Source of the DNA: Corynebacterium halotolerans YIM 70093 = DSM 44683
GTDB lineage: Bacteria; Actinomycetota; Actinomycetes; Mycobacteriales; Mycobacteriaceae
Reading direction: 5' to 3'
Length of the DNA stretch: 64,000 nucleotides
Assembly (NCBI RefSeq): GCF_000341345.1
Contig: NC_020302.1
Coordinates: 1,096,075 to 1,160,074 of the forward strand
Position 1 is the first letter of the stretch. Every line of letters begins with the position of its first letter. Both the position numbers and the translations under genes were made by a program. This document shows positions 34,722 to 63,360 of the stretch, piece by piece. Under the pieces are notes generated by a model. The model was not told the origin of the DNA, searched no databases, and was given only the letters and a program-made list of their open reading frames with translations.

Positions 34722-35177
34722 CTACCCGAACTCGCGCAGATACAGCAGCATCGCGCCGCCGCCGTCGGGCTCGATGTTGGTGAAACCGTGCCGTTCGTAG
34801 AAGCGCCGGGCCTCAGTGTCGGGGGCGTCGACGCCGATGTGCATCTCCTCGCAGCCGTGGGCCCGCACGAGCCGGAGCAGCTCGTCCAGAATCCGGCCGC
34901 CGATGCCCTCACTGCGGCGTGCAGGTTCGACGTAGAGCTCCTCGAGCTGTGCGAGGGGGCCGTCGTGGTAGGGGGTCGGGCGCAGCGTCGCGAATGCGAA
35001 GCCGACCGCTTCCTCCCCGCCGGCCAGGAGAACGATGACATCGTCGCGGGCTAGGAGCGTCTCGAAGCGCCGCGCGAACTCGACCGCCGCGGGTTCGGGT
35101 ACCCCGAACTCGGCGTTGAACCGGTGGAGCAGCGTGCCGACGGTCCTCGCGTCGGCCGCCGTGGCCTGACGGATCAT
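34722..35177 (-). CDS. GNAT-family N-acetyltransferase
   Basis: 151 residues from ATG 35177, leaderless (TAAAAT 6 nt upstream); GTG 35183 is an alternative. The acetyl-CoA site is clear: LEELYVEPARRSEGIGGRILDELL (motif A with RxxGIG, about 78-101), then FYERHGFTNIEPDGGGAMLLYL. It transfers an acetyl group to an unknown amine. Single gene. Confidence 0.86.
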   Translation of the reverse strand: MIRQATAADARTVGTLLHRFNAEFGVPEPAAVEFARRFETLLARDDVIVLLAGGEEAVGFAFATLRPTPYHDGPLAQLEELYVEPARRSEGIGGRILDELLRLVRAHGCEEMHIGVDAPDTEARRFYERHGFTNIEPDGGGAMLLYLREFG

Positions 35178-35183
35178 GGCCAC

Positions 35184-35189
35184 ATTTTA
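35184..35189 (-). promoter_or_regulatory. Leaderless -10 element (TAAAAT, minus strand)
   Basis: Read on the minus strand, TAAAAT ends 6 nt before ATG 35177 of the acetyltransferase gene. Confidence 0.55.
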
Positions 35190-35249
35190 CCGGAGGACCG
35201 TGACCGCGGCAGGATGTCGTCACTTGTCCGGTCCGCCGCGGGTGGAAAG

Positions 35250-35287
35250 GGAAACGACCCCGGCGGGATGCCACCGGGGTCGTTTCC
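35250..35287. terminator. Strong hairpin terminator
   Basis: GGAAACGACCCCGG (35250-35263) pairs perfectly with CCGGGGTCGTTTCC (35274-35287); 14 bp, 10-nt loop. It lies 37 nt after the stop of the minus-strand BaeRF gene and before the acetyltransferase promoter. Confidence 0.75.
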
Positions 35288-35324
35288 GGAATTCACTCCC
35301 TGGGGGAGTGGTCCATCAGCTGTG

Positions 35325-36512: not shown

Positions 36513-36733
36513 GTTGACCTCCTCGATTGTTGTTCAGCGGGGTCGAAACGCCTCTGCTACGGTCGCCCGACCGCCGCTTTTGTAACCCCCATGTTGCACA
36601 CATCGGTGGGCACTGACAAGGTTTTGGTCTCTGACCTGGATCGATGTTGGCATTGACGGTAGCCCCTCTCGAAAAGGTGGTCCCTGACACAGTCCGGGGG
36701 AACTTTCGCCGGGGTCTGGCCCGTTGGCCGGGT

Positions 36734-37666
36734 ATGAAGGCAATTGGATTTCATGGGACAGGCGGACCGGAGGTCCTCGAGGTCGTCGATCTGGAGGACC
36801 CCGCGCCGCGCGAGGGAGAGATCCTGATCCGCGCCCACGCCGCCGCGGTGAACCCGACCGACACCGTCGGCCGCGCCGGGCAGCGAGCGGCCGGCAACCA
36901 CCGGCCGCCCTTCGTGCCGGGCATGGACGCCGCCGGGGTGGTCCGGGAGATCGGTTCGGGGACGCGCACCGACCTCGAGGTCGGCGACGCGGTGATGGCG
37001 GTCGTCGTGCCGAGTGGTTCTCACGGCGCCTACTCCGAGCTGCTCGCGGTTCCGGCGGACTCGGTCGTCTCCGCCCCGCGCGGAGCGGATCACGTGGAGG
37101 CCGCGACCCTACCGATGAACGGGCTCACCGCCCGGCTCGCGCTCGACACCCTCGGGCTGTCCGCCGGAGACGTGATCGCCGTGACAGGCGCTGCCGGGGC
37201 GATGGGCGGTTACGTCGTGCAGCTGGCCAAGGCGGACGGTCTGACCGTGGTGGCGGATGCGGCCGAGAAGGACGAAGAGCTCGGGCGCTCGCTCGGGGCC
37301 GACGTCGTGCTGCGGCGCGGCGACGGCTTCGCGGATCTGGTGCGCGAGCGGTACCCCGACGGCGTCGACGGGGGCGTCGACGGGGCTCTGCTGCTCGAGC
37401 GGTTCGCCCCCGCGGTCCGCGACGGCGGGACGATCATCACCATCCGCGGCTACGATGAACCCGGTGAACGGGGCATCACCTTCCGCCCCATCCTCGTGGT
37501 GGACTACGCCCGCGAGCGGGAGAAGCTGGACATACTGCGCGAGCAGGCTGAACAGGGGATTGTCTCCCTCCGCGTGGCGGATGTGCTGCCGAAGGAACAG
37601 GCTCCGGAGGCGCACCGGCGCCTGGAGGCGGGCGGGGTACGCGGTCGTCTTGTACTGACTTTCTGA
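36734..37666 (+). CDS. Zinc-independent NADP-dependent MDR oxidoreductase
   Basis: 310 residues from ATG 36734, where homologous proteins begin (MKAIGFHGTGGPEVLEV); no obvious ribosome binding site or leaderless -10 is present, so the start is less certain. GroES-like fold (AHAAAVNPTDTVGRAG, PGMDAAGVV), nucleotide site VTGAAGAMGGYVVQLAKADG, terminal EAHRRLEAGGVRGRLVLTF. Third member of this type in the window. Substrate unknown. It is directly upstream of the formate dehydrogenase operon, but the latter has its own promoter. Confidence 0.82.
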   Translation: MKAIGFHGTGGPEVLEVVDLEDPAPREGEILIRAHAAAVNPTDTVGRAGQRAAGNHRPPFVPGMDAAGVVREIGSGTRTDLEVGDAVMAVVVPSGSHGAYSELLAVPADSVVSAPRGADHVEAATLPMNGLTARLALDTLGLSAGDVIAVTGAAGAMGGYVVQLAKADGLTVVADAAEKDEELGRSLGADVVLRRGDGFADLVRERYPDGVDGGVDGALLLERFAPAVRDGGTIITIRGYDEPGERGITFRPILVVDYAREREKLDILREQAEQGIVSLRVADVLPKEQAPEAHRRLEAGGVRGRLVLTF

Positions 37667-37760
37667 GCCTTCTGACGCCCGTTGCCCGGGCGGACACCGA
37701 AACGACACCGAAACCTTGTCATCTCGAGGGCGATGCATGGCAGCCCAGAGGGAGAAGGGC

Positions 37761-37766
37761 TAGGGT
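37761..37766 (+). promoter_or_regulatory. Leaderless -10 element (TAGGGT) of the formate dehydrogenase operon
   Basis: TAGGGT ends 6 nt before ATG 37773, indicating that the formate dehydrogenase message starts on its start codon. No FNR-like palindrome was seen. Confidence 0.5.
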
Positions 37767-37772
37767 TGTGGC

Positions 37773-40700
37773 ATGTCGCGAAAAAGTCTCCTGGAGTGGC
37801 CGGTAATCCGGCAGCTGCGGTCGGGCGATGCATTCGGCCGCGGCGAAAACGTCCAGTCCCAAAAGTCCAAGGACCTCACCGCGCGCACCACCACCGCCGA
37901 CCGGGTCGTCCAAAGTGTCTGCCCGTACTGCGCCGTCGGCTGCGGCCAGCGGGTCTTCGTCAAGGATGAGAAGGTCATCCAGATCGAGGGGGATCCGGAT
38001 TCACCGGTCTCCCGCGGCCGCCTGTGCCCGAAGGGCTCCGCCAGTGAGCAGCTCGTGAACTCCTCGAGCCGTCAGACCGAGGTGCTCTACCGTGCGCCCA
38101 AGGCGAAGGAATGGCAGCGACTCGACGTCGACACCGCCATCGACATGATCGCCGACCGGTTCATGGAGGCCCGTCGCAACGGCTGGCAGGACACCGATGA
38201 TCAGGGCCGTCCGATCAACCGCACCATGGGCATCGCAGGCCTCGGTGGAGCGACCCTCGACAATGAGGAGAACTACCTCATCAAGAAGCTGTTCACCGCC
38301 GCCGGCGCGATTCAGCTGGAAAACCAGGCCCGCATATGACACTCCGCCACGGTTCCCGGTCTGGGAACCTCGTTCGGACGCGGCGGCGCCACCCAGTCGC
38401 TGCAGGATATGGCGAATGCTGACTGCATCGTCATTCAGGGATCCAACATGGCCGAAAACCACCCGGTGGGCTTCCAGTGGGTGACGGAGGCCAAGGCACG
38501 GGGCGCCAAGGTCATCCACGTTGACCCGCGGTACACCCGTACCTCGGCCGTGTCGAACCGGCACATCGCCCTGCGTGCCGGTTCGGACATCGTGCTGCTC
38601 GGTGCGCTGATCAACTACGTGCTCAGCAACGATCTGTGGTTCAAGGAGTACGTGCTCGCGTACACCAATGCGGCCACGATCATCCGTGATGAATTCCGGG
38701 ACACCGAGGACCTCGAGGGACTGTTCTCCGGCTATGACCCGGAGACCGGGGAGTACGACCTGGAGTCCTGGGCCTACAAGGCCCGGGGGGATCAGGCGGA
38801 GGCCGTCGGCGAGTGCAACGACGACGGCGCGGAGATGGCGGAGGAGGCCCGGCCCCACGCCTATGGTGCAGGTGGCCCCAAGGTCGAATCCTGGCGCTTC
38901 GAGACAGACGAGACGCTGGAGGATCCGAACACCGTCTTCCAGATCCTCAAGCGCCACTACTCCCGCTACACGCCGGAGATGGTGGAGGAGGCCTGCGGTG
39001 TCCCGCGGGAGGACTTCGAGTACCTCGCCCGCACGATCACCGAGAACTCCGGACGCGAGCGAACCACCTGCTTCGCCTACGCCGTCGGCTGGACCCAGCA
39101 CACCCTGGGCGCGCAGTTCATCCGCACCTCGACAATTCTCCAGCTTCTGCTGGGTAATGTCGGCCGTCCGGGCAGCGGCATCATGGCGCTGCGCGGACAC
39201 GCCAGTATCCAGGGCTCGACCGACATCCCGACGCTGTTCAACCTGCTGCCCGGCTATCTTCCGATGCCGAGCGTGGAGGAACAGACGCTGGAGGAGTACG
39301 TCCGCGACATCGCCTCACCGGAGCAGAAGGGCTTCTGGTCGAATGCGGACGCCTACACCGTCAGCCTGCTCAAGTCGTGGTTCGGCGACGCGGCCACCGA
39401 GGACAACGACTGGGGCTACAAGTTCCTGCCGAAGATCAACGGCGCCCACGACACGTACCACACCACGATGGCCATGATCGAGGACAAGGTCGACGGCTAC
39501 TTCGTCTTCGGCCAGAACCCGGCGGTGGGCTCCGCCCACGGCCGGATGCAGCGCGAAGGTCTGTCCCACCTGAAGTGGCTGGTCGTCCGCGACTTCCAGC
39601 TGATCGAGACGGCCACCTTCTGGAAGGACAGTCCCGAGATCGAGACGGGCGAGCTGCGCACCGAGGACATCGACACCGAGGTGTTCTTCATGCCAGCCGC
39701 CACCCACGTGGAGAAGGCGGGTACCTTCACCCAGACGCAGCGTATGCTGCAGTGGCGCCACAAGGCGGTCAATCCGCCGGGAGACGCCAAGAGTGAGCTG
39801 GAGTTCTTCTACAAGCTCGGCCAACGTATCCGCGCCAAGGTGGCGGACTCCACGGATCCGCGTGATCTGCCGCTGCAGTCGGTCACCTGGGACTACCCGA
39901 CCGACGAGCACGGCGATCCCGACGCCGAGGCGGTGCTGGCCGAGATCAACGGCCACCACCTCACCGGCGAGAAGGCTGGGCAGCCGCTGTCCGCCTTCAC
40001 CGAGATGAAGGCCGACGGCTCAACCTCGGGCGGCTGCTGGATCTACACCGGGGTCTACGCCGACGGCGTCAACCAGGCCGCCCGGCGCAAGCCGGGGCGC
40101 GAGCAGAACGAGACCGCACTCGAGTGGGGCTGGGCCTGGCCCGCCAACCGGCGCATCCTCTACAACCGCGCCTCCGCTGATCCTGAGGGCAAGCCGTGGA
40201 GTGAGCGCAAGAAGTACATCTGGTGGGACGCCGAGCAGGGCAAGTGGGTAGGCGACGACGTGCCGGACTTCCCGGTCGGTCTCGCTCCGGACTCCCGTCC
40301 GGACCGGGACGCCACCGGTGTCGCCGCACTCTCGGGCATTGACCCGTTCATCATGCAGGCCGACGGCAAGGGCTGGCTGTATGCCCCCAAGGGCACGATC
40401 GACGGTCCGTTGCCGACGCACTACGAGCCACAGGAGTCGCCGGTCGACAACCCGCTGTACGCGCAGCAGGCGAACCCGGCCCGGCTGATCTTCCCGCGCG
40501 AGGACAATCTCAGTGCGCAGAGCGCCGGGGCCGCCGGCACGGACGTCTACCCGTTCATCTTCACCACCTACCGGCTGACCGAACACCACACGGCCGGTGG
40601 AATGAGCCGCTGGCTGCCGTACCTGTCGGAGCTGCAGCCGGAGATGTTCTGCGAGATCTCCCCGGAGCTGGCGGAGGAACGCGGTCTGGAGAACTACGGC

Positions 40701-41084
40701 TGGGCCACGATCATCTCGCCGCGTACCGCCATCGAGGCGAAGGTGCTGGTCACTGAACGTGTCAAGGCGTTGAAGGTCGGCGGGAAGACCTTCCACCAGA
40801 TCGGCCTGCCGTATCACTGGGCGAACGGCGACAATGCCGTGGTCAGCGGCGACTCCGCCAACGATCTACTGGGCGTGACGCTGGATCCGAATGTCCAGAT
40901 TCAGGAGTCCAAGATCGGTGCCTGCGATATCCGGCCGGGTCGCCGTCCGCGGGGCAAGGACCTGCTCAAGCTCATTGACGAGTACCACGAGCGGGCAGGA
41001 CTGACGACCGAAACCAGCAACGAGAAGGTGACCGATCCGGAGGCCGAATTGGAATCCGGGAACGACGACGGGAAGGAGAAATAG
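37773..41084 (+). CDS. fdhA: Selenocysteine-containing formate dehydrogenase, catalytic subunit
   Basis: 1103 residues with an in-frame UGA at 38337-38339 read as selenocysteine (residue 189). It oxidises formate to CO2 at a Mo/W-bis-pterin centre. Residues about 50-95 carry the N-terminal 4Fe-4S ligands CPYCAVGC and GRLCPKGSA; ARI-Sec-HSATVPGLGTSFGRGG matches the catalytic motif of Sec formate dehydrogenases (Sec-His). Conserved pterin-binding regions NMAENHPVGF, IHVDPRYTRT and NVGRPGSGIMALRGHASIQGS follow. No twin-arginine signal peptide, so it is cytoplasmic. Translation depends on the SECIS hairpin and on the Sec genes 6 kb downstream. Fe-S and NrfD subunit genes follow directly. Confidence 0.94.
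38337..38369 (+). promoter_or_regulatory. UGA selenocysteine codon and bacterial SECIS element
   Basis: The UGA at 38337-38339 is followed 11 nt later by a perfect 7-bp hairpin, GGTTCCC (38351-38357) and GGGAACC (38363-38369), with the loop GGTCT. The E. coli fdhF SECIS has the same apical GGUCU at the same codon distance. SelB would bind the loop to deliver Sec-tRNA. Confidence 0.9.
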
Positions 41085-42110
41085 ATGACGATCAACCCGT
41101 TGATCGAGACGCCCACGCACATCCAATACGGGGACGAGGCACAGCCGCGCAAGGGTTTCTTCACGGACACCTCGATCTGCATCGGCTGCAAGGCCTGTGA
41201 GGTCGCCTGCAAGGAGTGGAACCAGAACCCGGTGGACTCGGACTTCAAGCTGTCGGAGTCGTCCTACGACAACACCGAGTCTCTCGGTGCCGACACCTGG
41301 CGGCACGTGGCCTTCGTCGAGCAGGGGAAGGACCGCCTCGAGGAGGCCCGCGAGTCCGGCCGCAAGCTGGTCGGTCTGGGCATGCCGTCCATCGGCTCGC
41401 CGGCCGAGCAGAAGCAGGATCTCAGCGACGTCGACACGACTCCGCCGGACACCCCGGACTTCCGCTGGCTGATGTCCTCGGACGTGTGCAAACACTGCAC
41501 TCACGCCGGTTGCCTGGACGTCTGTCCGACCGGTGCGCTCTTCCGCACCGAGCACGGCACCGTCGTCGTCCAGGACGACGTCTGCAACGGTTGCGGCACC
41601 TGTGTCGCCGGCTGCCCCTTCGGCGTGATCGAGCGCCGCTCCGATGGCGGGGTGAGCGTGAAGGAGGACCGCAGCCAGGCCCCGCAGGAGGAGGACTTCA
41701 TCCCGGGCGCGGACGACACGAAGCACAACGTCGGCGTCGCCCAGAAGTGCACCCTGTGCTACGACCGCATCAAGGACGGCCAGACCCCGGCGTGCGCCCA
41801 GGCCTGCCCGACCACCTCCATCAAGTACGGCGAGCACGACGAGCTGCTCGAGATCGCCCAGGCGCGGGTGGCCGAGCTGCACGCGCAGGGCATGACCGAG
41901 GCGCGCCTCTACGGCGCGAACCCCGAGGACGGCGTCGGTGGCACCGGCTCCATCTTCCTGCTGCTCGATGAACCCGAGGTCTACGGTCTTCCGCCGGATC
42001 CGCGCGTGCCCACCGCTGACCTGCCGCAGATGGCGAAGAAGGCCGGTGTCGCGGCACTGGGCATGCTGGGGGCCGTGGCCGGTGCGTTCCTGATGGGAGG
42101 CCGCAAGTGA
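41085..42110 (+). CDS. Formate dehydrogenase iron-sulfur subunit
   Basis: 341 residues beginning on the base after the previous stop. Four 4Fe-4S clusters are ligated by CIGCKACEVACKEWNQ, CKHCTHAGCLDVCPTGAL, CNGCGTCVAGCPFGV and CTLCYDRI...CAQACPTTS. A C-terminal hydrophobic stretch (about 318-336) anchors it in the membrane, as in FdnH. It passes electrons from the catalytic subunit to the membrane protein. The stop overlaps the next start by 4 nt (ATGA). Confidence 0.93.
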   Translation: MTINPLIETPTHIQYGDEAQPRKGFFTDTSICIGCKACEVACKEWNQNPVDSDFKLSESSYDNTESLGADTWRHVAFVEQGKDRLEEARESGRKLVGLGMPSIGSPAEQKQDLSDVDTTPPDTPDFRWLMSSDVCKHCTHAGCLDVCPTGALFRTEHGTVVVQDDVCNGCGTCVAGCPFGVIERRSDGGVSVKEDRSQAPQEEDFIPGADDTKHNVGVAQKCTLCYDRIKDGQTPACAQACPTTSIKYGEHDELLEIAQARVAELHAQGMTEARLYGANPEDGVGGTGSIFLLLDEPEVYGLPPDPRVPTADLPQMAKKAGVAALGMLGAVAGAFLMGGRK

Positions 42111-43207
42111 CGACCTCCCGTTTCGACAGCCTCCGGCCACCGGAGAAGTCCCGCAAGCGCCGGGACGGCGGAAAGAAGAAGAAACGCAACGCATGGCTCG
42201 GCTCGGGCGGAGACGGTTCCCGTCCGATGCCGATGGTGCCGGAGGCGGAGTTCTCCTCCTACTACGGCCGCCAGGTGGTCAAGGCTCCGCCGTGGGAGAA
42301 CCCCATCGCGATCTACCTGTTCCTGGGGGGCGTGGCCGGCGGTTCCGCGCTGCTCAGCGTGGGTGGACAGCTGACCGGGCGCACGAAACTGCGCCGCAAC
42401 GGCCGACTGGCCGCGCTCGGTGGAGCCGCGCTCGGCTCGCTGGCCCTGGTCGCGGATCTCGGCCGTCCCGAGCGGTTCCTCAACATGCTGCGCACCTTCA
42501 AGCTCAGCTCCCCGATGAGCGTGGGTTCCTGGATCCTGGTCAGCTTCGCCACGCCCGCGGGGGTGGCCGCGGTCGCTGAGCTTGACGACATGACCGGCCG
42601 GAAGGTACCGCTGCCGAAGTTCGCCCGGAACATCCTGCACAAGCTGTCCGGTCCGGCCGGGCTCGCCTCCGGTGCCCTCGGTGCGCCGCTGGCGGTCTAC
42701 ACCTCGGTACTGCTGTCGGACACCGCGGTGCCGACGTGGAACGCGGCGAAGGACCACCTGCCGTTCGTGTTCGTCAGCTCCGCCAGCCTGGCCTCCGGCG
42801 GTCTGGCCATGATCACCACCCCGGTGGAGGAGGCGGGTCCGGCCCGCGCCCTCGCGGTGGCGGGGGCGGTCGGCGATGTCGTCGCCACCCGCACCATGGA
42901 CGCGCAGATGGACCCCGTCGCCAATGAGCCGATGCACCAGGGCAGGCCCGGGAAGTTCCTCCGCCTGAGCGAGAAGCTGGTCATCGGCGGCGGACTGGGC
43001 GCGCTACTGGGGGGCCGCAACCGCATCGTCGCCGCCGCCTCCGGTGCCGCCCTGTTGGCCGGTTCCGCGCTGACGCGATTCGGCGTCCTGCACGCCGGCC
43101 TGAACTCGGCGAAGGACCCGCGCTACACCGTCGAGCCGCAGAAGCGCCGCCTGGCGGAGCGGCAGGCGCAGGGCAAGGTCGCCGACTCCATCACCACCGT
43201 CCGGTAA
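42107..43207 (+). CDS. NrfD/PsrC-type membrane subunit of formate dehydrogenase
   Basis: 366 residues overlapping the Fe-S subunit gene. A Lys/Arg-rich N-terminus (about 1-40) precedes ENPIAIYLFLGGVAGGSALLSVGGQ and about eight further hydrophobic segments, typical of NrfD/polysulfide-reductase membrane subunits, which transfer electrons to or from menaquinone. Conserved VADLGRPERFLNMLRTFKLSSPMSVGSW is the family quinone-site region. Formate dehydrogenases of E. coli use a cytochrome b subunit here instead, so this is an alternative architecture. Ends the operon, followed by a palindromic terminator. Confidence 0.88.
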   Translation: MTTSRFDSLRPPEKSRKRRDGGKKKKRNAWLGSGGDGSRPMPMVPEAEFSSYYGRQVVKAPPWENPIAIYLFLGGVAGGSALLSVGGQLTGRTKLRRNGRLAALGGAALGSLALVADLGRPERFLNMLRTFKLSSPMSVGSWILVSFATPAGVAAVAELDDMTGRKVPLPKFARNILHKLSGPAGLASGALGAPLAVYTSVLLSDTAVPTWNAAKDHLPFVFVSSASLASGGLAMITTPVEEAGPARALAVAGAVGDVVATRTMDAQMDPVANEPMHQGRPGKFLRLSEKLVIGGGLGALLGGRNRIVAAASGAALLAGSALTRFGVLHAGLNSAKDPRYTVEPQKRRLAERQAQGKVADSITTVR

Positions 43208-43212
43208 GACGG

Positions 43213-43232
43213 GCCGTTCCCGCGGGAACGGC
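43213..43232 (+). terminator. Terminator of the formate dehydrogenase operon
   Basis: GCCGTTCCCG followed by its exact complement CGGGAACGGC makes a 20-nt perfect palindrome 5 nt after the stop codon of the NrfD gene. No T tract follows. Confidence 0.55.
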
Positions 43233-43318
43233 TGCCGACGGAGCGCGCTTCCACTTCCGGGGACGCGCCCTTTCGTCATGTCCGGGACCGGGAGGGGTCA
43301 CCGCAAAAAATCAGAATA

Positions 43319-43614
43319 ATGGGAGGTGGGGCCGGCGTCATGGCTGGCGCCCATGGGCTTGCTCTGCCCGCCCGCACCACCCGCCGCGACATGTGGAAGC
43401 GCCTCGTGGAACGTCACGGTGTGGTGGGCGCCCCCTTTGATGAGCGCGTCGGCTGGCCGGTCGGTGACTTCCTCTTCCACTACAAGGCGGACAACACCAC
43501 CTTCACCGTGAAGATCCGCCAGGCCGGTTTCCACGACTCCCTGGACACGAGACCCGTCTGCTGCAGCTCTTCGACGACCTCGTGGGACACCAGATTCTGC
43601 CGCCGTTCCACTGA
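43319..43614 (+). pseudogene. Remnant of an SDR/epimerase-like gene, N-truncated and frameshifted
   Basis: From 43388 the frame reads DMWKRLVERHGVVGAPFDE, then VGWPVGDFLFHYKAD and TVKIRQAGFHDSLDTR, resembling the C-terminal third of NAD-dependent epimerase-like SDR proteins. After about 43550 the matching sequence continues in another frame (RLLQLFDDLVGHQILPPFH, stop at 43612-43614). The N-terminal Rossmann part is missing entirely. It lies between the formate dehydrogenase and selenium genes, and looks like deletion scar material. Confidence 0.6.
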
Positions 43615-43796
43615 CCGTGCCGGGCGGGAGGGGCGCAGCGGGACACCCCACGCTTCGGGTGATGTCATCCCGATTCAAACGAGTGGGAATCTACTCAAAG
43701 CGTGGGGGAGTTGTTGTGCCCCGGAGCTTATTGGGCGGTGGGGTCCGGTGCTGTGCGGGTCTGAAGGGGTCGCACGGAGAATCCGCTGTGCCGCGC

Positions 43797-44810
43797 CTAC
43801 TTCACGGTCACGGTGCCCTGCCCGGCGACGGTCTCGCCGATGACGGGGTAGCCGGGGACCTCGCCGATGACCAGCAGCCCGCCGGAGGTCTGGGCGTCGG
43901 CCAGCACCAGCAGGTCGTCCTCGGTCACCCCCTCACCGACACTGAGGTTCGGACGGACCCAGTCCAGGTTGCGCCGGCTGCCGCCGGGGATGAAGCCGTC
44001 GCGCAGGGCCTCGTCCGCACCGTCGATGTGGGGGACCGCCGAGGAATCGACCACCGCCCCGATGCCGGAGGCCCGGCACATCTTGTACAGGTGGCCGAGC
44101 AGGCCGAAGCCGGTGACGTCGGTGGCGGCCCGCGCACCCGCCGCCAGCGCGGCCTGTGCGGCGTCCCGGTTGAGGGCGGTCATGCTGTCGATCGCCGCCT
44201 GGAAGATCTCGCCGGTGGCCTTGTGCCGGTTGTTGAGCAGGCCCACACCGATCGGCTTCGTCAGCGTGATCGGCAGGCCGGCCTCGGCGGCGTCGTTGCG
44301 CATCAGCTTGTCCGGGTCGGCGATGCCGGTGACGGCCATGCCGTACGTCGGCTCGGGGGAGTCGATGGAGTGCCCGCCGGTCACCGGGGCACCGGCCTCG
44401 TTGGCCACGTCCATGCCACCGCGCAGCACCTCGGTGAGGATCTCCATCGGCAGCACCTCCCGCGGCCAGCCGACGAGGTTGAGGGCGGTGACGGGACGCC
44501 CACCCATCGCGTAGACGTCGGAGAGCGCGTTGGCGGCGGCAATACGGCCCCAGTCGTAGGGGGTGTTGACCATGGGCGTGAAGAAGTCGGCGGTGGAGAT
44601 GACCGCGAGGCCGTCGGCGATGCGCACCGCCGCGGCATCGTCGCCGTCATCCAGGCCGACGAGGACATCCGGGTGGGCGACCCCCGTCAGGCCGCGAACG
44701 GCGTCCTCGAGCTCTCCGGGCGGGATCTTGCACGCGCAGCCGCCGCCGTGCGCGTAGCCGGTTAGTTGGATGGCGTCGATTGCTGTCAGGGAGGGCTCGG
44801 TACCAGTCAT
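43797..44810 (-). CDS. selD: Selenide, water dikinase (selenophosphate synthase)
   Basis: 337 residues from ATG 44810 (leaderless, TAGGCT 7 nt upstream). It makes monoselenophosphate from selenide and ATP. The N-terminal active-site loop reads AHGGGCACKIPPGEL, the counterpart of the GCGCK motif of E. coli with catalytic Cys and Lys; a Cys, not Sec, occupies the site. VISTADFFTPMVNTPYDWGRIAAANALSDVYAMGG and GARAATDVTGFGLLGHL are strong family motifs. It is divergent from the tRNA-Sec/selA/selB unit and supplies its selenium donor. Confidence 0.96.
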   Translation of the reverse strand: MTGTEPSLTAIDAIQLTGYAHGGGCACKIPPGELEDAVRGLTGVAHPDVLVGLDDGDDAAAVRIADGLAVISTADFFTPMVNTPYDWGRIAAANALSDVYAMGGRPVTALNLVGWPREVLPMEILTEVLRGGMDVANEAGAPVTGGHSIDSPEPTYGMAVTGIADPDKLMRNDAAEAGLPITLTKPIGVGLLNNRHKATGEIFQAAIDSMTALNRDAAQAALAAGARAATDVTGFGLLGHLYKMCRASGIGAVVDSSAVPHIDGADEALRDGFIPGGSRRNLDWVRPNLSVGEGVTEDDLLVLADAQTSGGLLVIGEVPGYPVIGETVAGQGTVTVK

Positions 44811-44817
44811 ACCTGTG

Positions 44818-44823
44818 AGCCTA
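44818..44823 (-). promoter_or_regulatory. Leaderless -10 element (TAGGCT) for selD
   Basis: Read on the minus strand, TAGGCT ends 7 nt before the selD start codon at 44810. Confidence 0.55.
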
Positions 44824-44843
44824 ACCCCTCAGGGCGGAACCGG

Positions 44844-44874
44844 CTGACGCGCCAGGGATATGCGGTGCTAGGGT
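44844..44874 (+). promoter_or_regulatory. Promoter of tRNA-Sec
   Basis: A -10 TAGGGT at 44869-44874 ends 8 nt before the first base of the tRNA, with a possible -35 CTGACG at 44844-44849 (19-nt spacer). Confidence 0.5.
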
Positions 44875-44882
44875 TTCCCCTT

Positions 44883-44977
44883 GGAGGCGTACGTGTCCTG
44901 GTGGGCGCCCCGGTCTTCAAAACCGGTGAGGCCGAGTAGCTCGGTCTGGCGGGTTCGATTCCCGTCCGTCTCCGCCA
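44883..44977 (+). tRNA. selC: Selenocysteine tRNA (anticodon UCA)
   Basis: 95 nt including the encoded CCA. The structure is diagnostic: long acceptor stem GGAGGCG paired with CGTCTCC (one G-U; the eighth pair is T-C, unpaired), 6-bp D stem GTGTCC-TGGT-GGGCGC with a 4-nt loop, anticodon stem CCGGT-CTTCAAA-ACCGG with TCA at 44917-44919, a 7-bp extra arm GGCCGAG-TAG-CTCGGTC, and T stem GCGGG/CCCGT with loop TTCGATT. It is placed 45 nt before selA on the same strand, so they may share a transcript. Confidence 0.95.
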
Positions 44978-45022
44978 GACTTCTGTCGCACGGCAGCTGA
45001 AATACCAGGCCAGGAGGGTGCA

Positions 45023-46354
45023 GTGGGCAATGGTGACGATCCCCGCCGCCGCATTCCGCGAACGGATCAGTTGCTGGCCCTGCCCGAGGTGGCCGCAGCC
45101 CGCGCGCGCCTGAGCGAGACCCGCATCCGGGCGATCATCCGGGGCGCGCAGGACGACGCCCGCCGCGGTGGGATCTCCCCCGAAGAGGTCACGGACACGG
45201 TCGTCGGCACGCTCGCCGCCACCGCCACCAGCACCCTGACCCCGGTGCTCAACGCCACCGGCGTCATCGTCCACACCAACCTCGGTCGTGCCCCGCTGTC
45301 GGCCCCGGCGCGGGAGGCGCTCACCGCCGCCGCCGGCTACGTCGACGTCGAACTCGACCTGGCCACGGGACTGCGCTCGCGCACCCGCGGGGCCGGGGCG
45401 CGCGCGGCGCTGCTGGCCGCGTGCCCGGCGGCGGAGGACGCGCTGGTGGTCAACAACGGCGCGGCCGCCCTGCTGCTGGCCACCACGGCGCTGGCCGACG
45501 GGGGAGAGATCATCATCAGCCGCGGTGAGCTCATCGAGATCGGCGCCGGCTTCCGCCTGCCCGAACTCATCGAGACCACCGGTTCCCGCCTCCGCGAGAT
45601 CGGCGCGACCAACCGCACGCACCCGGCCGACTACGTGGACGCCGTCACCGACCGCACCCGCGCCCTGCTCAAGGTCCACCCCAGCAACTTCCGCGTCGAG
45701 GGCTTCACCTCCTCCGTCGACGTCCCCGAGCTGCGGCGCATCGCCGACGAGCACGACCTGGCACTGATCGCCGACCTCGGCAGCGGCCTGCTCACCCCGG
45801 ACCCCGTGCTGCCCGACGAGCCCGACATCGACGCCGCGCTGCGGGCGGGGGCGGACGTGGTCATCGCCAGCGGCGACAAGCTGCTCGGCGGCCCCCAGGC
45901 CGGCATCCTGCTCGGCCGCGCGGAGGTCATCGCCCGCCTCAAACGCCACCCGCTGGCGCGCGCGCTGCGCGTCGACAAGCTCACCCTGGCCGCCCTCGAG
46001 GCCACCGTGGCCGGGGGGCCCACCCCGGTGCAGCAGGCGCTCCATCCCGATACGGAACAGATCCGGCGACGCACCGGGGCCCTGGCCGAGGCCACCGGCG
46101 GGCGCGTCGTCGAACACGACGGCCGCGTCGGCGGCGGGGGAGCGCCCGGCCACCCGCTGCCCGGCCTGGCCGTCGAACTGCCCGAGGCCCTGGCCCCGCT
46201 GCTGCGCGCCGGCGGGCCCGTCGTCCTCGCCCGGGTCCACCAGGGCGCGTGCCTGATCGACCTGCGGTGCGTGCCGCCGCACGAGGACGACCGGCTGACG
46301 GCCGCGGTCACCACCGCGCTCACCAAGCTCACCACGCTGGAAGAGGGGAACTGA
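45023..46354 (+). CDS. selA: L-seryl-tRNA(Sec) selenium transferase
   Basis: 443 residues from GTG 45023 with AGGAGGG at 45012-45018. A PLP enzyme that converts Ser-tRNA-Sec to Sec-tRNA-Sec with selenophosphate. Features: N-terminal RRIPRTDQLLALPEVAAARARL, VLNATGVIVHTNLGRAPLS (about 75-93), the DVELDLATGLRSRTRGAG loop, and PLP-lysine K286 in IASGDKLLGGPQAGILLG. Ends 4 nt before the selB start, so selA and selB are co-transcribed. Confidence 0.96.
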   Translation: MGNGDDPRRRIPRTDQLLALPEVAAARARLSETRIRAIIRGAQDDARRGGISPEEVTDTVVGTLAATATSTLTPVLNATGVIVHTNLGRAPLSAPAREALTAAAGYVDVELDLATGLRSRTRGAGARAALLAACPAAEDALVVNNGAAALLLATTALADGGEIIISRGELIEIGAGFRLPELIETTGSRLREIGATNRTHPADYVDAVTDRTRALLKVHPSNFRVEGFTSSVDVPELRRIADEHDLALIADLGSGLLTPDPVLPDEPDIDAALRAGADVVIASGDKLLGGPQAGILLGRAEVIARLKRHPLARALRVDKLTLAALEATVAGGPTPVQQALHPDTEQIRRRTGALAEATGGRVVEHDGRVGGGGAPGHPLPGLAVELPEALAPLLRAGGPVVLARVHQGACLIDLRCVPPHEDDRLTAAVTTALTKLTTLEEGN

Positions 46355-46358
46355 AGCA

Positions 46359-48143
46359 TTGTTCGTCGTAGCCACCGCCGGACACGTCGACCACGGAAAA
46401 TCCACCCTGGTCCGCGCCCTGACCGGTATGGAACCCGACCGCTGGGCCGAGGAACGCGACCGCGGCCTGACCATCGACCTCGGCTTCGTCTGGACGGGGT
46501 TGCCCTCCGGCCGCCACGTCGCCTTCGTCGACGTGCCCGGGCATGAGCGCTTCCTCGGCAACATGCTCGCCGGCCTCGGCCCGGCCCCGGTGGTCTGCTT
46601 CATCGTCGCCGCCGACGAGGGCTGGCAGGCCCAGTCCACCGACCACCGCGACGCCGTCGCCGCCCTCGGCATCGAACACGGCCTGGTCGTGCTCACCCGC
46701 GCCGACCGGGCGGACCAGCCTCGCCGCGATGAGGTGCTCGCCCAGGTCCGCACCGAGCTGGCCGGCACCCCGCTGGCCGATGCCCCCGCGGTGACCGTCT
46801 CCGCCGTGACGGGGGAGGGGATCGACGACCTGCGTGCCGCCCTCGACGACGTGCTGGCCTCCGCCCCCGCCCCGGATCCGGACGAGCGCGTGCGGATGTG
46901 GATCGACCGTTCCTTCACCATCAAGGGGGCGGGCACCGTCGTCACCGGCACGCTCGCGGCAGGCACCCTGGTTGAGGGCGGACGCCTCGAGCTGATCGGC
47001 CGCGAGGCCGTCCGCCCGGTCACCATCCGCGCGCTGCACAGCCAGAACCGCTCCCACCCGGAGATCGGACCGGTCAACCGCGTGGCCGTCAACCTGCGCG
47101 GCGAATCCGCCGACGACATCCACCGCGGCGACGTACTGGTCAGCCCCGGTGCCTGGTCGGTCGTCGACACCGTCGACGTGCGCCGCACCACCGGTACGCC
47201 GCTGTCGGACGGGCCGCAGACCATCGTCGTGCATACCGGCACCGTCGCGGTGGAAGCGCAGCTGCGCCCCTTCAGTGACGACCACGCCCGCCTGACGCTC
47301 GACCGCCGCCTGCCGCTCGAGCTCGGCGACCGCTTCGTCCTGCGCGGTTCCGGCAGCCGCTCGGTGCTGGCCGGCGTGCAGGTCCTCGACGTCGACCCGC
47401 CGGAACTGACCCGCCGTGGCGACGGCCGCCGACGCGGCGAGGCGCTCGCGGGCATGAACCCGGCCGGTGACGCCGTTCTCGAGGTCACCCGCCGCGGATT
47501 CGTCCGCGTCGACGAACTCACCCGCATGGGCTTGGAGCTGCCCGCCGAAGCGCCCGCGCGCATCACCGCCTTCGGCCCCTGGTGGGTGGACTCCGTACTC
47601 GTCGACACCTGGCGCGGACGCCTGCGCGAGGCCGTCGAGCAGCTCGACCCGCTGTCGCCGGGCCTGTCGCGGGGCGCCGCCCGGGATCTGATCTCCTCGC
47701 CCGACGACGTGCTGCTCGACGCCGTCGTCGCCGCCGCCGGGCTCGAGCAGGAGGGCGGCCACATCCGCCAGCCTGGCCGGAAGGTGGACCTCGGCCCCGC
47801 CGAGAAGTCCGTGGCCACCATCGAGGGATGGCTGCGCGATGAACCCTTCGCCGCCCCCGACGCCAATGAACTCACCGACCTCAAGCTGGGGGCGAAGCAG
47901 CTGGCCGCCGCCGAGCGCGCCGGTCGCATCCTCCGCCTGGCCGACGGGGTCGTGCTGCTTCCCGACGCCCCGCGCAAGGCGGTGGCAACGTTGCGTCAGC
48001 TGGATCAGCCCTTCACCACTAGCCAGGCCCGCAAGGCGCTCGACACCTCCCGGCGCATCGCCATCCCGCTGCTCGAGCACATGGACGAGCTCGGCCTGAC
48101 CCGCCGCGTGGACGCCGGCAACCGGATCGTGGTGGGGAAGTAG
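46359..48143 (+). CDS. selB: Selenocysteine-specific elongation factor
   Basis: 594 residues from TTG 46359. GTPase domain: ATAGHVDHGKSTLVRALTG (G1), DRGLTIDLGFV (G2), FVDVPGHERFLGNMLAG (G3, with the His-Glu-Arg and SelB-typical Asn/Met), VLTRADR where EF-Tu has NKxD. Domain 2-3 barrels span about 175-335, and the C-terminal ~240 residues form the winged-helix SECIS-binding region (QLDQPFTTSQARKALDTSRRIAIPLLEHMDELGLTRRV at the end). It delivers Sec-tRNA to the UGA of the formate dehydrogenase mRNA. The stop overlaps the next GTG by one base. Confidence 0.95.
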   Translation: MFVVATAGHVDHGKSTLVRALTGMEPDRWAEERDRGLTIDLGFVWTGLPSGRHVAFVDVPGHERFLGNMLAGLGPAPVVCFIVAADEGWQAQSTDHRDAVAALGIEHGLVVLTRADRADQPRRDEVLAQVRTELAGTPLADAPAVTVSAVTGEGIDDLRAALDDVLASAPAPDPDERVRMWIDRSFTIKGAGTVVTGTLAAGTLVEGGRLELIGREAVRPVTIRALHSQNRSHPEIGPVNRVAVNLRGESADDIHRGDVLVSPGAWSVVDTVDVRRTTGTPLSDGPQTIVVHTGTVAVEAQLRPFSDDHARLTLDRRLPLELGDRFVLRGSGSRSVLAGVQVLDVDPPELTRRGDGRRRGEALAGMNPAGDAVLEVTRRGFVRVDELTRMGLELPAEAPARITAFGPWWVDSVLVDTWRGRLREAVEQLDPLSPGLSRGAARDLISSPDDVLLDAVVAAAGLEQEGGHIRQPGRKVDLGPAEKSVATIEGWLRDEPFAAPDANELTDLKLGAKQLAAAERAGRILRLADGVVLLPDAPRKAVATLRQLDQPFTTSQARKALDTSRRIAIPLLEHMDELGLTRRVDAGNRIVVGK

Positions 48144-48706
48144 TGGGCTACACCAGGCAGGAGCTGGAGACCTTCCGTGGGTGCACCGTCCCCGACCTGC
48201 TGCCCGAGCCGCTCAACCTGCTGTTCGTGGGCATCAACCCGGGACTGACCAGCGCGGCGGCCGGGGCGCACTTCGCCAAGCGCGGCAACCGCTTCTATCC
48301 GGCGCTGCACCGCGCGGGCATCACGGACACGCTCATCGACGCCTCCGAGGGCTTCACCGAGACCGATCTGGCGCAGCTGACCTCCCGCGGCATCGGCATC
48401 ACCAACATCGCCCCGCGGGCGACCGCCCGGGCCGATGAACTCGACGACGACGAACTGCGTGCCGGTCTGCGGCGACTGGACCGGCTCGTGGCCGAGCGTG
48501 CCCCGAAGGTGGTGGCGATCCTCGGCATCACCGCCTACCGCACGGCGTTCTCCCGGCCCAGGGCGAAGGTGGGGCGGCAGGAGTCGCCGTGGCCCGGCGT
48601 GGAACTGTTCGTCGCGCCGAATCCGAGCGGATTGAACGCGCACGCGCAGGTACCCGACCTGGCCGCCGCCTACAGGGACATCGCCCGGATTGCCGGGATC
48701 CTGTAG
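48143..48706 (+). CDS. mug: Mismatch-specific DNA glycosylase (G/U, Mug family)
   Basis: 187 residues from GTG 48143, overlapping the selB stop. The uracil-DNA-glycosylase fold of the Mug/TDG branch is seen in LLFVGINPGLTSAAAGAHFAKRGNRFYPAL (motif I GINPG, about 27-56), ITNIAPRATARADEL, VAILGITAYRTAF, and APNPSGLNAH (motif II, with the NPSG loop). It excises U or T mispaired with G in base-excision repair. No functional link to selenium is evident; its position is probably opportunistic. Confidence 0.92.
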   Translation: MGYTRQELETFRGCTVPDLLPEPLNLLFVGINPGLTSAAAGAHFAKRGNRFYPALHRAGITDTLIDASEGFTETDLAQLTSRGIGITNIAPRATARADELDDDELRAGLRRLDRLVAERAPKVVAILGITAYRTAFSRPRAKVGRQESPWPGVELFVAPNPSGLNAHAQVPDLAAAYRDIARIAGIL

Positions 48707-48891
48707 AACGCCCGCGCAAGACAAATGGTTTCCCCTGTTAGGGAATTGTGATCTTCGGGACAGGGGCAGGTCACCGGGGATTTCCGCCCCCTCCGGCCGC
48801 CCACGGTTCAGCCGATGTCACCCCAGCGGGGCGAAGGCGCGTTACGTTGAATGGGATACCCTTTTTTCGTTCATTTGTGAAGGAGAACCCC

Positions 48892-53552: not shown

Positions 53553-54809
53553 TCAGCCCAGCAGCACGATCAGCGCGAGGGTGATGAGCACCACGACCGC
53601 GAGCACCACGATCCACCACGGCCCGGACCAGCGGATCCGGTCGCTGCGCTGACGGTCGGCCCGGTGCGCGCCGCCGCCGCGGACCCTGCGCGCCTCCGCC
53701 ACCGAGCGGGGGATGCCCTGCACGGGTTCCGCGGCCTTCGCGGGGCCGGCCGCGTCCGGCAGGTCGTCATCCTCCACCACGCGGATCACCTCGGTGGCAT
53801 GGGCCCGCTCGGCGGGGGCCGGGGCCACCGGGGCCTTGTCGGCGGGTGCCTCATCGGCCGGTGCCTGCTCCGGGGTCACCGGCTCCTTGCCCGCCGTCTC
53901 ATCCCTGCGCTGCGTGGGGGAGACAATGCTGCGCCTCCGGTGGCTCTCGGCCCGCGCAGGGGTGACGGCCTCGAAGGAGTTCGAGGGCATGTGCACCGAC
54001 CAGCTCCCGTCGGCGCCGACGGACACCCCGGCCTCCGAGAGGTCCGGCACGCCGGCGCCCTCCGGTCCGGCCACGGCGGCGGGCACCGCGAGCGTCGGCA
54101 AGGGTGAGATCTCCGGTTCCAGATCCCGATCGTCCAGGTCGGAGGTGCGGGCGCATTCGACGCTCACGGCGCCGTCGCGGACGAAGGCGCGGGCCATCAC
54201 CCGCAGGCCGAGGGCGGCGAAGTGCGCGAGCGCGTCGCTGAGCTTGAGCGAGTCCCACCGGGTGGCCACGCCGAGCACGCGGCCGTCGTGGAGGACCGTG
54301 ACGCGGCCGTCGACCTCGACGAGCTCCACCAGGAGCTGCACAGTACCCAGCGCCGCGAGCTCGTCCGTTCCGACGTCGCCGTCGACCGCCGGATCCAGCT
54401 CGAGCGCGCGCCCCGGGGGCAGCAGCGTCCACGGTTCGTCCAACGGATCGTTGACCGGGACGCACCACTGCGGGTCCACCAGCAGCACGGACACCCCGAG
54501 GCCTGCGTTGGGCACGACCCGCACCTCGGCGGTGACCTGTGGGGTGAGCTGGGAACCGGTCACGCGCTCCAGCTGCGGGAACTGTTCCCGAAAATCCGCG
54601 GGCAGCGTGCCGATCACGCCGAAGTCCCACTTGACCTTGAAGCCGCCGCCGCGGGGGTCGGGCAGCAGGGTCACGGGTACCTCGACGGCGTCGTGGATGG
54701 CGCGGTCGTGGAAGTGGGAGAAGAGGATGGCCTGGTTGGGGTCCGCGACGGCGATCCGGTTGCTGGTCCCGACCGCCCGGGCGGGCAGGGCGTAGGGAGT
54801 GAACGGCAT
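53553..54809 (-). CDS. Hypothetical protein with disordered linker and C-terminal membrane anchor
   Basis: 418 residues from a leaderless ATG (TAGACT 6 nt upstream). Residues 1-225 look globular, with repeated beta-rich stretches (VPVTLLPDPRGGGFKVKWDFGVIG; AEVRVVPNAGLGVSVLLVDPQWCVPVND). Residues about 260-385 are Pro/Ala/Glu-rich and probably disordered; a basic patch is followed by a single membrane span (WWIVVLAVVVLITLALIVLLG) ending the protein, so the domain faces the cytoplasm (tail anchor). I do not recognise the family; it looks actinobacterial and conserved in style. Confidence 0.75.
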   Translation of the reverse strand: MPFTPYALPARAVGTSNRIAVADPNQAILFSHFHDRAIHDAVEVPVTLLPDPRGGGFKVKWDFGVIGTLPADFREQFPQLERVTGSQLTPQVTAEVRVVPNAGLGVSVLLVDPQWCVPVNDPLDEPWTLLPPGRALELDPAVDGDVGTDELAALGTVQLLVELVEVDGRVTVLHDGRVLGVATRWDSLKLSDALAHFAALGLRVMARAFVRDGAVSVECARTSDLDDRDLEPEISPLPTLAVPAAVAGPEGAGVPDLSEAGVSVGADGSWSVHMPSNSFEAVTPARAESHRRRSIVSPTQRRDETAGKEPVTPEQAPADEAPADKAPVAPAPAERAHATEVIRVVEDDDLPDAAGPAKAAEPVQGIPRSVAEARRVRGGGAHRADRQRSDRIRWSGPWWIVVLAVVVLITLALIVLLG

Positions 54810-60061: not shown

Positions 60062-60868
60062 ATGTATGACGTGTCGACGGTGCTCTTCGCTTTCGGGCTG
60101 ACACTCTTCGCAGGCCTCGCGACGGGCATCGGCGGTTTGATCGCGGTGCTCAGGAAGGACCAGGGACCCCGGTTCCTGGCCGGCGCCCTCGGCCTGTCCG
60201 CGGGTGTGATGCTCTACGTGTCCTTCCTGGAGATTCTGCCCAAGGCCTTCGACGAGCTCGGCACGGCATGGGGGGAGCGCACCGGCGCGTGGGCGGCGGT
60301 GGGGGCCTTCTTCGCCGGTATCGCGCTGATCGCGGTCATCGACCGGCTCGTGCCGGAACCGATCAACCCGCACGAGCGGGGTATCAGCGCGGACCCCCAG
60401 CTGTCCGCGCAACGCCGGCGCATGATGAAGATGGGCGTGTTCACCGCCGGGGCGATCGCCATCCACAACTTTCCGGAGGGCTTCGCCACCTTCATCGCCG
60501 GCCTGGAGGACGCGTCCATCGCGATCCCCGTCGCGCTCGCGATCGCCATCCACAACGTCCCCGAGGGGGTGGCGGTGGCCGTGCCCATCCGCCAGGCCAC
60601 CGGCTCCCGGCGTAAGGCGCTGGCCTGGTCCACGGTCTCCGGCCTGGCGGAACCGGCCGGCGCGCTCGTCGGCTTCGCCCTGCTCATGCCCTTCCTGGGG
60701 CCGGTCACACTCGGGCTGTCGTTCGCCGCGGTCGCCGGCATCATGGTGTTCATCTGCCTGGATGAGCTGCTGCCCACCGCCGTGGCCACCGGCCGCCACC
60801 ACACCGCCATCTACGGGCTCGTCGCCGGTATGGCGATCATGGCGGTCTCCCTGCTGCTGTTCATCTAG
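60062..60868 (+). CDS. zupT: ZIP-family zinc transporter
   Basis: 268 residues, leaderless start. Eight spans. The binuclear metal-transport motifs AIAIHNFPEGFATF (about 133-147) and AIAIHNVPEGVAVAVPI (about 158-174) are the HN(x)PEG signature of ZupT. GLATGIGGLIAVL near the start is typical. It imports Zn2+ and other divalent metals. Its place behind the CNNM gene suggests a metal-homeostasis pair, though it has a separate promoter. Confidence 0.94.
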   Translation: MYDVSTVLFAFGLTLFAGLATGIGGLIAVLRKDQGPRFLAGALGLSAGVMLYVSFLEILPKAFDELGTAWGERTGAWAAVGAFFAGIALIAVIDRLVPEPINPHERGISADPQLSAQRRRMMKMGVFTAGAIAIHNFPEGFATFIAGLEDASIAIPVALAIAIHNVPEGVAVAVPIRQATGSRRKALAWSTVSGLAEPAGALVGFALLMPFLGPVTLGLSFAAVAGIMVFICLDELLPTAVATGRHHTAIYGLVAGMAIMAVSLLLFI

Positions 60869-60979: not shown

Positions 60980-61915
60980 TCAGTGCCCTGAGTGCGCTTC
61001 GCGGCCGGCGCCGGTGAGCTTCTTGATGCCCTCGATGAGGAGGACGACGACCACACCCCAGATCAGACCGACGATCAGGGAGAAGAAGGTGTTGACCAGC
61101 CAGCCCAGGAAACCGCCCCCGGCACCGACCTCCAGCCCGTGGATGAAGTCGTAGGGCCAGGTGAGACCGAACTCCTCGAGCCCGAGGACGATGATGTGGC
61201 CGCCGACCCAGAGCATCGCGAAGGTGCCGACGATCGAGATCGCCGCGAGCACCTTGGGCATGGCGGCGACCAGACCACGACCGAAGCCGGCGGCCGCTCC
61301 GCCGCGCCCGACCAGGGCCAGGCCGATGTCGTCCATCTTCACCAGCAGCGCCACCGCGCCGTACACCAGGGCGGTGATGCCGAGAGCCACGAGGACGAGC
61401 ACGACGGTACGGAGGAGGAACGTTTCGTCGGCGACCTCGTTGAGCGAGATGACCATGATCTCCGCGGAGAGGATGAGATCCGTGGTGATCGCCCCCTTGA
61501 CCAGGTTGTCCTCGGCGTCGGGGCCCTTGTCCTTCGCCGGTTTCTCCTTCTTCTCGTGGCCGAGCACCCGGCCGAGGACCTTCTCCGCGCCCTCGAAGCA
61601 CAGGTAGGTGCCGCCCACCATGAGGATCGGGGTCAGCGCCCAGGGCGCGATCCACGACAGCAGCAGGGCGATGGGGAGGATGATGACGAGCTTGTTGATC
61701 AGCGATCCCTTGGTGATCCGCCAGATCATCGGCAGCTCGCGCGCCGGGGTCACCCCCGAGACGAACCGCGGGGTGACGGCGGCGTCGTCGACCACCACGC
61801 CCGCGGCCTTCATACTGGTGCGGCCCGCGGCGGCAGCCACATCGTCCACGCTGGAGGCCGCGGTTCGCGCAATCAACGCCACATCATCGAGCAGTGCTAC
61901 CAGTCCACCGGCCAT
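60980..61915 (-). CDS. DUF808 (YedI-like) membrane protein
   Basis: 311 residues from ATG 61915 with AAAGG nine nt upstream; a GTG at 61924 is possible. GLVALLDDVALIARTAASSVDDVAAAAGRTSMKAAGVVVDDAAVTPRFV matches the DUF808 N-terminus, with about six membrane spans following. The family's function is unknown. Monocistronic. Confidence 0.87.
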   Translation of the reverse strand: MAGGLVALLDDVALIARTAASSVDDVAAAAGRTSMKAAGVVVDDAAVTPRFVSGVTPARELPMIWRITKGSLINKLVIILPIALLLSWIAPWALTPILMVGGTYLCFEGAEKVLGRVLGHEKKEKPAKDKGPDAEDNLVKGAITTDLILSAEIMVISLNEVADETFLLRTVVLVLVALGITALVYGAVALLVKMDDIGLALVGRGGAAAGFGRGLVAAMPKVLAAISIVGTFAMLWVGGHIIVLGLEEFGLTWPYDFIHGLEVGAGGGFLGWLVNTFFSLIVGLIWGVVVVLLIEGIKKLTGAGREAHSGH

Positions 61916-62001
61916 CGGGGCCACCTTTCGGATTCGGTTGAACGTGCATCGGTGACCGCCAGATTAGCCAGATCATGGCCCGCGTGCCGGAGCACCGGTT
62001 C

Positions 62002-63355: not shown

Positions 63356-63360
63356 AAAAC

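Follow-up and report, generated by a model that had tools for sequence, protein, structure and literature searches.

A predicted selenocysteine formate dehydrogenase with its own selenocysteine machinery in Corynebacterium halotolerans, probably an old chromosomal module of the genus

Genes of the block and their proposed roles

The window analyzed here is a 64,000-nucleotide stretch of the salt-tolerant, reportedly non-pathogenic Corynebacterium halotolerans YIM 70093 (contig NC_020302.1, positions 1,096,075 to 1,160,074), whose genome comprises 3,222,008 bases, 3,135,752 of them in the chromosome (PMC3569386). At window positions 37773-48143, within 10.4 kb, lie fdhA, fdhB and fdhC, predicted to encode a formate dehydrogenase (FDH), together with selD, the tRNA-Sec gene (selC), selA and selB for the synthesis and insertion of selenocysteine (Sec). 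Judged from sequence, this block encodes a predicted membrane-bound Sec-containing FDH with its own Sec machinery and is probably a module of long standing on the Corynebacterium chromosome, since lost from many species. A first-pass annotation of the window had listed a UGA-containing fdhA with a selenocysteine insertion sequence (SECIS), two partner subunits, selD, tRNA-Sec, selA and selB, and all of them are found where it placed them. In the main text of the genome paper, no word beginning with "seleno" and no "formate" occurs (PMC3569386).

The alpha subunit gene, fdhA (37773..41084, + strand, 1103 amino acids), is open throughout except for a single TGA at codon 189 (38337..38339), which is predicted to be read as Sec. 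Both halves of the gene match the NF041513 "formate dehydrogenase" model, and in a genome-wide search the whole gene, with its one TGA, reaches 1924.8 bits where 1400 is required. In an alignment with the solved enzyme 1h0h_A, residue 189 falls on the X that stands for selenocysteine. The beta subunit gene, fdhB (41085..42110, +), encodes a ferredoxin-type (4Fe-4S) protein with a hydrophobic stretch near its C-terminus (residues 320-338) and scores 164 bits with the FDH-beta model, below the cut-off of 334.7. The product of fdhC (42107..43207, +), with four hydrophobic stretches at the threshold applied, matches NrfD families only (PF03916, 62.8 bits) and thus lacks the character of the gamma subunit of Escherichia coli FDH-N, FdnI, a cytochrome b. 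The FdnG-like alpha subunit over the cut-off, the FdnH-like beta subunit and the NrfD-like anchor place the enzyme with actinobacterial Sec-FDHs (NF041513) and with FqoABC, a proposed formate:quinone oxidoreductase.

The Sec-specific genes are equally well defined. Each of selD (43797..44810, −; TIGR00476, 389.4 bits), selA (45023..46354, +; TIGR00474, 405.3 bits; best solved relative 8uzw) and selB (46359..48143, +; TIGR00475, 293.8 bits), the selenophosphate synthetase, selenocysteine synthase and Sec-specific elongation factor genes, scores above the cut-off of its model, and SelB includes the C-terminal winged-helix domain (PF09107). Between selD and selA lies selC (44883..44977, +), detected by ARAGORN with anticodon TCA and by Rfam RF01852 at 77.7 bits. 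All the factors of the bacterial Sec-decoding trait are therefore present, along with a gene bearing UGA at a conserved Sec site. The earlier description of the module as complete and self-contained holds for the Sec-specific factors and fails beyond them, as FdhD, an FDH maturation factor, is encoded about 580 kb from the block (C1:551440-552171 of the same genome). Consensus promoters and terminators at the block did not rise above shuffle level.

From the families of the proteins, SelD would supply selenophosphate, SelA would turn Ser-tRNA-Sec into Sec-tRNA-Sec, and SelB, bound to a hairpin that starts 14 nucleotides 3′ of the first base of the UGA, would bring Sec-tRNA-Sec to that codon. 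FdhA may then oxidize formate at a Mo- or W-Sec center, and the electrons would run along the Fe-S clusters of FdhB into the NrfD-type FdhC and from there into the menaquinone pool. The alpha subunit belongs to the same family as that of E. coli FDH-N (1kqf), but the window's enzyme has an NrfD-type anchor instead of a cytochrome b and no twin-arginine translocation (Tat) motif in FdhA. Because this export motif is missing, the active site of FdhA probably faces the cytoplasm, unlike that of FDH-N. The motif, searched in its usual form [ST]-R-R-x-[FL]-[LMIVF], was found in none of 25 FdhA N-termini (27 loci tried) by a search for the motif alone, so that the export signal of FDH-N has no counterpart by this measure. 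Available parts of a study of the Rhodococcus equi relative count in part against this sidedness, as its alpha subunit was modeled with a putative twin-arginine signal removed and DeepTMHMM predicted a signal peptide where SignalP found none (PMC13332983). Where FDH-N has its Tat signal, the N-terminal extension of FdhA (window 37773-37930) shares the motif W-P-[VI]-x-[RK]-Q with the other N-termini of this set.

Comparison with described systems indicates that the block is an ordinary, well-supported member of an already known kind of locus. The clustering of fdhA with sel genes has been stated before (PMC1794560, in the part available). In Actinomycetospora chiangmaiensis, FDH1 likewise comprises FdhA, FdhB and FdhC of 1078, 362 and 366 amino acids clustered with SelA and SelB, although that cluster, as far as the accessible account goes, lists a permease and no selD and is one of three Sec-FDH systems (PMC7176365). 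According to the same account, hardly any formate accumulated in that organism when selenite was supplied, selenium-dependent formate removal or oxidation was measured, and FDH1 has a selenocysteine FDH. FqoABC resembles the window's enzyme in its FdnGH-like peripheral subunits and NrfD-like anchor, and FqoC is reported from 59 actinobacterial species; in the available part of that work, Sec and sel genes are not treated (PMC8076601). The present analysis adds a count across the genus, a common locus together with sites that lack the block, the conflicting history of fdhABC and a plasmid-borne copy.

The in-frame UGA and its hairpin

Downstream of the UGA, a SECIS hairpin (38351..38369, +) is formed by a 7-bp stem (38351-38357 with 38363-38369) and the loop GGUCU (38358-38362), whose first base is number 22 when the U of the UGA is number 1. 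Spacing and loop are presumably the same in E. coli fdhF. TGA occurs at the aligned site in all 127 fdhA places compared, the window included, which amount to 119 distinct stretches. Among these, all 7 stem pairs form in 80, 6 of 7 in 38 and 5 of 7 in one, while the loop reads AGTTT in 52, GGTCT in 39 and AGTCT in 28. Covariation was assessed in 22 diverse sequences out of 92 distinct 51-nucleotide stretches, against 500 shuffles: 96.1% of the stem cells are paired and 10 cells are changed on both sides, neither value being equaled in any shuffle, and the covariation score was likewise reached by none.

The hairpin does not pass every test. Two of the five covariation measures are non-significant (the 3 double-change pairs were matched in 39 of 500 shuffles, the pair types in 273 of 500), the folding energy of the 52-nucleotide SECIS stretch is no better than that of shuffles (z −0.14), and an Rfam scan gave no SECIS match; the covariation and folding figures count against the main reading. 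One could suppose that the UGA is a true stop, that fdhA is a frameshift-free pseudogene or a split gene and that no Sec is made, and the second half of fdhA does have an ATG of its own at 38409. The invariant UGA at the aligned Sec position, the covarying stem and the exact co-occurrence of UGA-containing fdhA and selA among 242 genomes leave this explanation with next to no probability.

A single client enzyme for the Sec machinery of C. halotolerans is likely on sequence grounds, as the earlier suggestion that the whole selenium apparatus may serve one enzyme had it. A search of the whole genome with a SECIS model gave one site at 78.5 bits, with the next at 16 bits; of the five weak matches (14.6-16 bits), two start with TGA, neither of them flanked by long open frames on both sides. 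Because the model used is of the FdhA type, the same suggestion is left short of certainty, and other selenoproteins are possible. It has been reported that fdhA is often the sole selenoprotein gene (PMC13188914, in the part available).

Distribution and chromosomal site in Corynebacterium

The occurrence of the module was surveyed in 242 Corynebacterium genomes or species, labeled below by G-numbers. Over its cut-off, selA is found in 78 (83 at an E-value of 0.001), and NF041513 in 77, the 78th being G204, a genome 77% complete in which fdhA lies in fragments; in all 78, the N-terminal part of fdhA is present and holds one TGA. At the cut-offs, selA and UGA-containing fdhA mark identical sets of 78 species, and neither gene stands alone in any of the 242, a clean case in which one enzyme apparently sustains the 21st amino acid. 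NF041513 matches 146 genomes at an E-value of 0.001 when weak matches are included; the weak ones, only part of which were among the matches listed, are taken as other molybdoenzymes. Sec use in the genus is indeed patchy, as had been supposed at first, and with about one third of the species carrying the module its presence in C. halotolerans is probably no surprising import. A weak selA fragment in G012 (G012:C1:135798-135956, model residues 107-159), interrupted by a TGA and a TAA, may be what is left of a module since lost.

The order fdhA-fdhB-fdhC-selD(−)-selA-selB recurs in 38 of the 40 stretches retrieved from Sec-positive genomes, the exceptions being G040 and G232, where fdhABC lies farther upstream. 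Clustering of neighboring genes identified, downstream, the conserved cluster c12 (53553..54809, − strand in the window; without a Pfam match and in many relatives the first cluster past selB), a ZIP-family transporter gene (60062..60868, +) and a DUF808 gene (60980..61924, −), followed by c20, c22 and a gene resembling typA. The names typA and PIG-L (used below) were assigned from the sequence itself. DUF808 served as the synteny anchor in those genomes with selA and DUF808 rows on one contig (54 of the 78 Sec-positive ones), and in 53 of these 54, the window included, it follows selA within 25 kb and is read from the other strand. In the window the distance is 15.9 kb and the flank is retained.

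Sites without the block give the complementary view. Twenty DUF808 stretches from Sec-less genomes are free of fdh genes, sel genes and tRNA genes, the only selB matches being weak ones that fall on the typA-like gene. Both flanks are seen without the block in two Sec-less genomes: in G075, 1.4 kb separates a PIG-L gene from a c12 gene of weak similarity at the site that the block occupies in Sec-positive G013, and in G024, c67 and c12 stand 2 kb apart at the site occupied in G015, G016 and G150. The gaps between these flanks contain other open frames and no remnant of the block. Such pairs, in which identical flanks enclose the block in one genome and not in the other (G013/G075, G015/G024), make gain and loss of a codon meaning directly testable.

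One occupied site is that of C. aurimucosum ATCC 700975 (G016), whose fdnG/fdxH-selABCD region was published in 2010 (PMC2830990), so that a Sec block is not new to the genus. That locus has the same kinds of genes, an internal UGA and the same chromosomal position, with DUF808 6 kb downstream; in the best tblastn stretches its FdhA is 67% and its SelA 62% identical to those of the window. The available portion of that account holds no genus-wide survey such as the present one (PMC2830990). The DUF808 matches of the C. aurimucosum group each contain one stop (TGA in G016, G015, G150, G159 and G048; TAA in G115, G114 and G155), possibly a mere overrun beyond the start codon.

Gene histories and mobility

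A tree of rpoB was built from 60 Corynebacterium (40 Sec-positive and 20 Sec-less, of the 242) and six outgroups, and a tree of concatenated SelA, SelB and SelD from 55 Corynebacterium (of the 78) and 29 other Actinomycetes, rows with less than 80% of a gene or without one of the genes being excluded from concatenated trees. The window's SelA was the query of the scan that supplied the rows from outside the genus, so that any bias favors outsiders close to the window. All 55 sampled Corynebacterium form one clade with a support of 100 in the SH-like approximate likelihood ratio test (SH-aLRT). The rpoB and Sel trees have 18 of 37 splits in common, against a mean of 0.15 and a maximum of 2 after relabeling, and of the 17 rpoB splits with support of at least 95, 13 are shared and one is contradicted. 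On the rpoB tree, Sec state changes 6 times among the 60 rows (4 when only starred branches are counted), and these roughly six changes are probably losses, which would fit a single acquisition or ancestral presence in the genus followed by repeated loss. The shared locus, the block-free flanks and the single SelA+SelB+SelD clade favor such an old single block over a recent import.

Several observations qualify this picture. At rpoB support of at least 80, 15 of 25 splits are shared and 8 contradicted, a partial congruence, and the position of the window in the rpoB tree is weakly supported; the trees themselves are quick or FastTree searches. One synteny exception, G232, has DUF808 250 kb away, and 24 of the 78 Sec-positive genomes were unscored, 5 because the two genes lie on different contigs and 19 for want of a listed DUF808 row. 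As for deep origin, a Sel clade uniting Corynebacterium with Mycobacteriaceae/Skermania is rejected (p 0.049). All of these weigh against a simple history of retention. Since the splits are partly shared and partly contradicted, the history of the sel genes is best regarded as mainly, not purely, vertical. Ancestral retention had been expected to show itself as the same block at the same locus in most relatives, with congruent selA and selB trees. This expectation is largely borne out: the locus agrees in 53 of 54 checkable genomes, though the block is present in a third of relatives and not in most, and the single clade and the 13 strong splits accord with it where the 8 contradicted splits do not.

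Beyond the genus, exchange between actinomycete families is likely because Corynebacterium with mycobacteria is rejected as one clade, with Gordonia added as well (p 0.0024 for Corynebacterium + Mycobacteriaceae/Skermania + Gordonia). Micrococcales and Mycobacteriales are intermixed in the SelA+SelB+SelD tree, and Sec transfers among Actinobacteria are listed by Peng et al. (PMC5029168, in the part available).

The fdhABC half of the block conflicts with the species relationships. The kin group used for this comparison, named after the rpoB and Sel trees had been seen, comprised the window, G013, G217 and G212 (kin by rpoB) and also G130 and G199, which have no rpoB row and were included for DUF808 identity and Sel position. 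Grouping the window with these kin is acceptable to the SelA+SelB+SelD data (p 0.387) but is rejected by FdhA (p 7e-7) and by FdhB+FdhC (p 6e-5, with G104 left out); these rejections tell against one undisturbed history for the whole block. Two tandem fdhABC operons in G104 (G104:C1:1046500-1066499) each have an fdhA with an in-frame TGA, and the two belong to different FdhA clades: the first is the partner of the window's FdhA (support 99), and the second groups with G068 and G232 (support 100). A union of the window and G104 is rejected by the Sel data (p 0.0003).

Because FdhA and FdhB+FdhC reject the window with its kin, fdhABC may have been exchanged or may be a differently sorted old duplicate. 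There is thus a chance only a little short of even that an old sel half has stayed fixed at the locus while fdhABC was swapped in beside it or survives from an old duplicate operon; the tandem operons of G104 and the rejection by the Sel data of the window with G104 also favor this account. Set against it, the window is the earliest branch of Corynebacterium in the Sel tree and, together with the first G104 copy, in the FdhA tree as well, which is compatible with one shared history, and its rpoB placement is weak. A poorly placed species could therefore also explain the conflict. A broader model can be offered tentatively, at somewhat lower probability still: one chromosomal slot would set the meaning of UGA in Corynebacterium, with selD-selC-selA-selB kept or deleted as a unit and different Sec-FDH operons exchanged beside it; the window's operon would derive from an old duplicate or from a different lineage, and in Arthrobacter the whole kit is carried by a conjugative plasmid.

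The view that the block is a mobile cassette recently imported into C. halotolerans from another actinomycete draws on its compact layout, on the same block order in 17 of 18 non-Corynebacterium loci listed (of 80), and on the FdhA of Arthrobacter gallicola, the most identical to the window's (79%) of 107 rows, although Corynebacterium G104, added later, reaches 81%. A further point in its favor is Arthrobacter plasmid pYA7-1a (NZ_CP110115.1, 129,773 bp), which carries the full fdhABC-selD-tRNA-Sec-selA-selB module with an in-frame UGA at 29536-39409 and a Tn3-family transposase gene adjoining selB. The features of a mobile island are nonetheless missing from C. halotolerans. The window groups with Corynebacterium in both the Sel and FdhA trees (support 100), not outside the genus, and its block stands at the same locus as in congeners, not at a different one. 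No transposase or integrase gene is present among 8 classified neighbor genes, the two adjoining ones included. No convincing bounding repeats were found in 36400-49000, only matches of 19-35 nucleotides at about 74-86% identity, taken as chance in coding DNA rich in guanine plus cytosine. The content of these bases, 65-75% in 2-kb steps, is not odd beside 68.4% for the chromosome (PMC3569386, in the part available). No Corynebacterium appears among the plasmid rows and organism tallies listed (25 of 149 and 10 of 148 records), from which records near the window's genome may have been omitted. Recent import of the block is accordingly very improbable; for the sel genes it is rejected by the shared locus and the tree, whereas an import of fdhABC is possible.

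Transfer of the block elsewhere in Actinomycetes is plausible because a conjugative plasmid carries it complete. In PLSDB, pYA7-1a is typed as conjugative, MOBP and MPF_T, which puts the same block on a transmissible element for Actinomycetes at large, and in the SelA+SelB+SelD tree it falls among other Arthrobacter and relatives. Plasmids of this kind may be a means by which the genetic code is expanded in nature. The idea that the earlier reader had of a transferable cassette thus loses its application to recent arrival in this species, given the locus and the single clade, and keeps some force from the plasmid, the rejected interfamily clades and the separate history of fdhABC. A literature search of titles and the beginnings of abstracts found no publication on the pYA7-1a module among the 15 of 125 papers listed, which is not proof that none exists. 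Besides the transposase gene, a site-specific integrase gene lies a few kb beyond fdhA on pYA7-1a. Inverted repeats give no sign that the module is Tn3 transposon cargo: 16 pairs of at least 24 nucleotides occur in the stretch searched and none bounds it. A second plasmid record, Tsukamurella "plasmid 17" (238,675 bp, typed as non-mobilizable), has the full gene order, tRNA-Sec and an in-frame UGA, but its neighbors look chromosomal by eye, so that of the two only pYA7-1a is good evidence of mobility. Among phages, five records have partial SelA matches (43-50% identity), all spanning less than 80% of the query.

Two further features of the window lie outside the block. Near the block is a homologue of archaeo-eukaryotic-type release factors (baeRF family 2; 35325-36512, −); Sec-less G103, G031 and G121 have it too, and a functional tie to recoding is therefore unlikely. 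At the other end, a thiamine pyrophosphate riboswitch (63263-63371, +; Rfam RF00059, 57.2 bits) overlaps with its 3′ end the start of an open reading frame at 63361.

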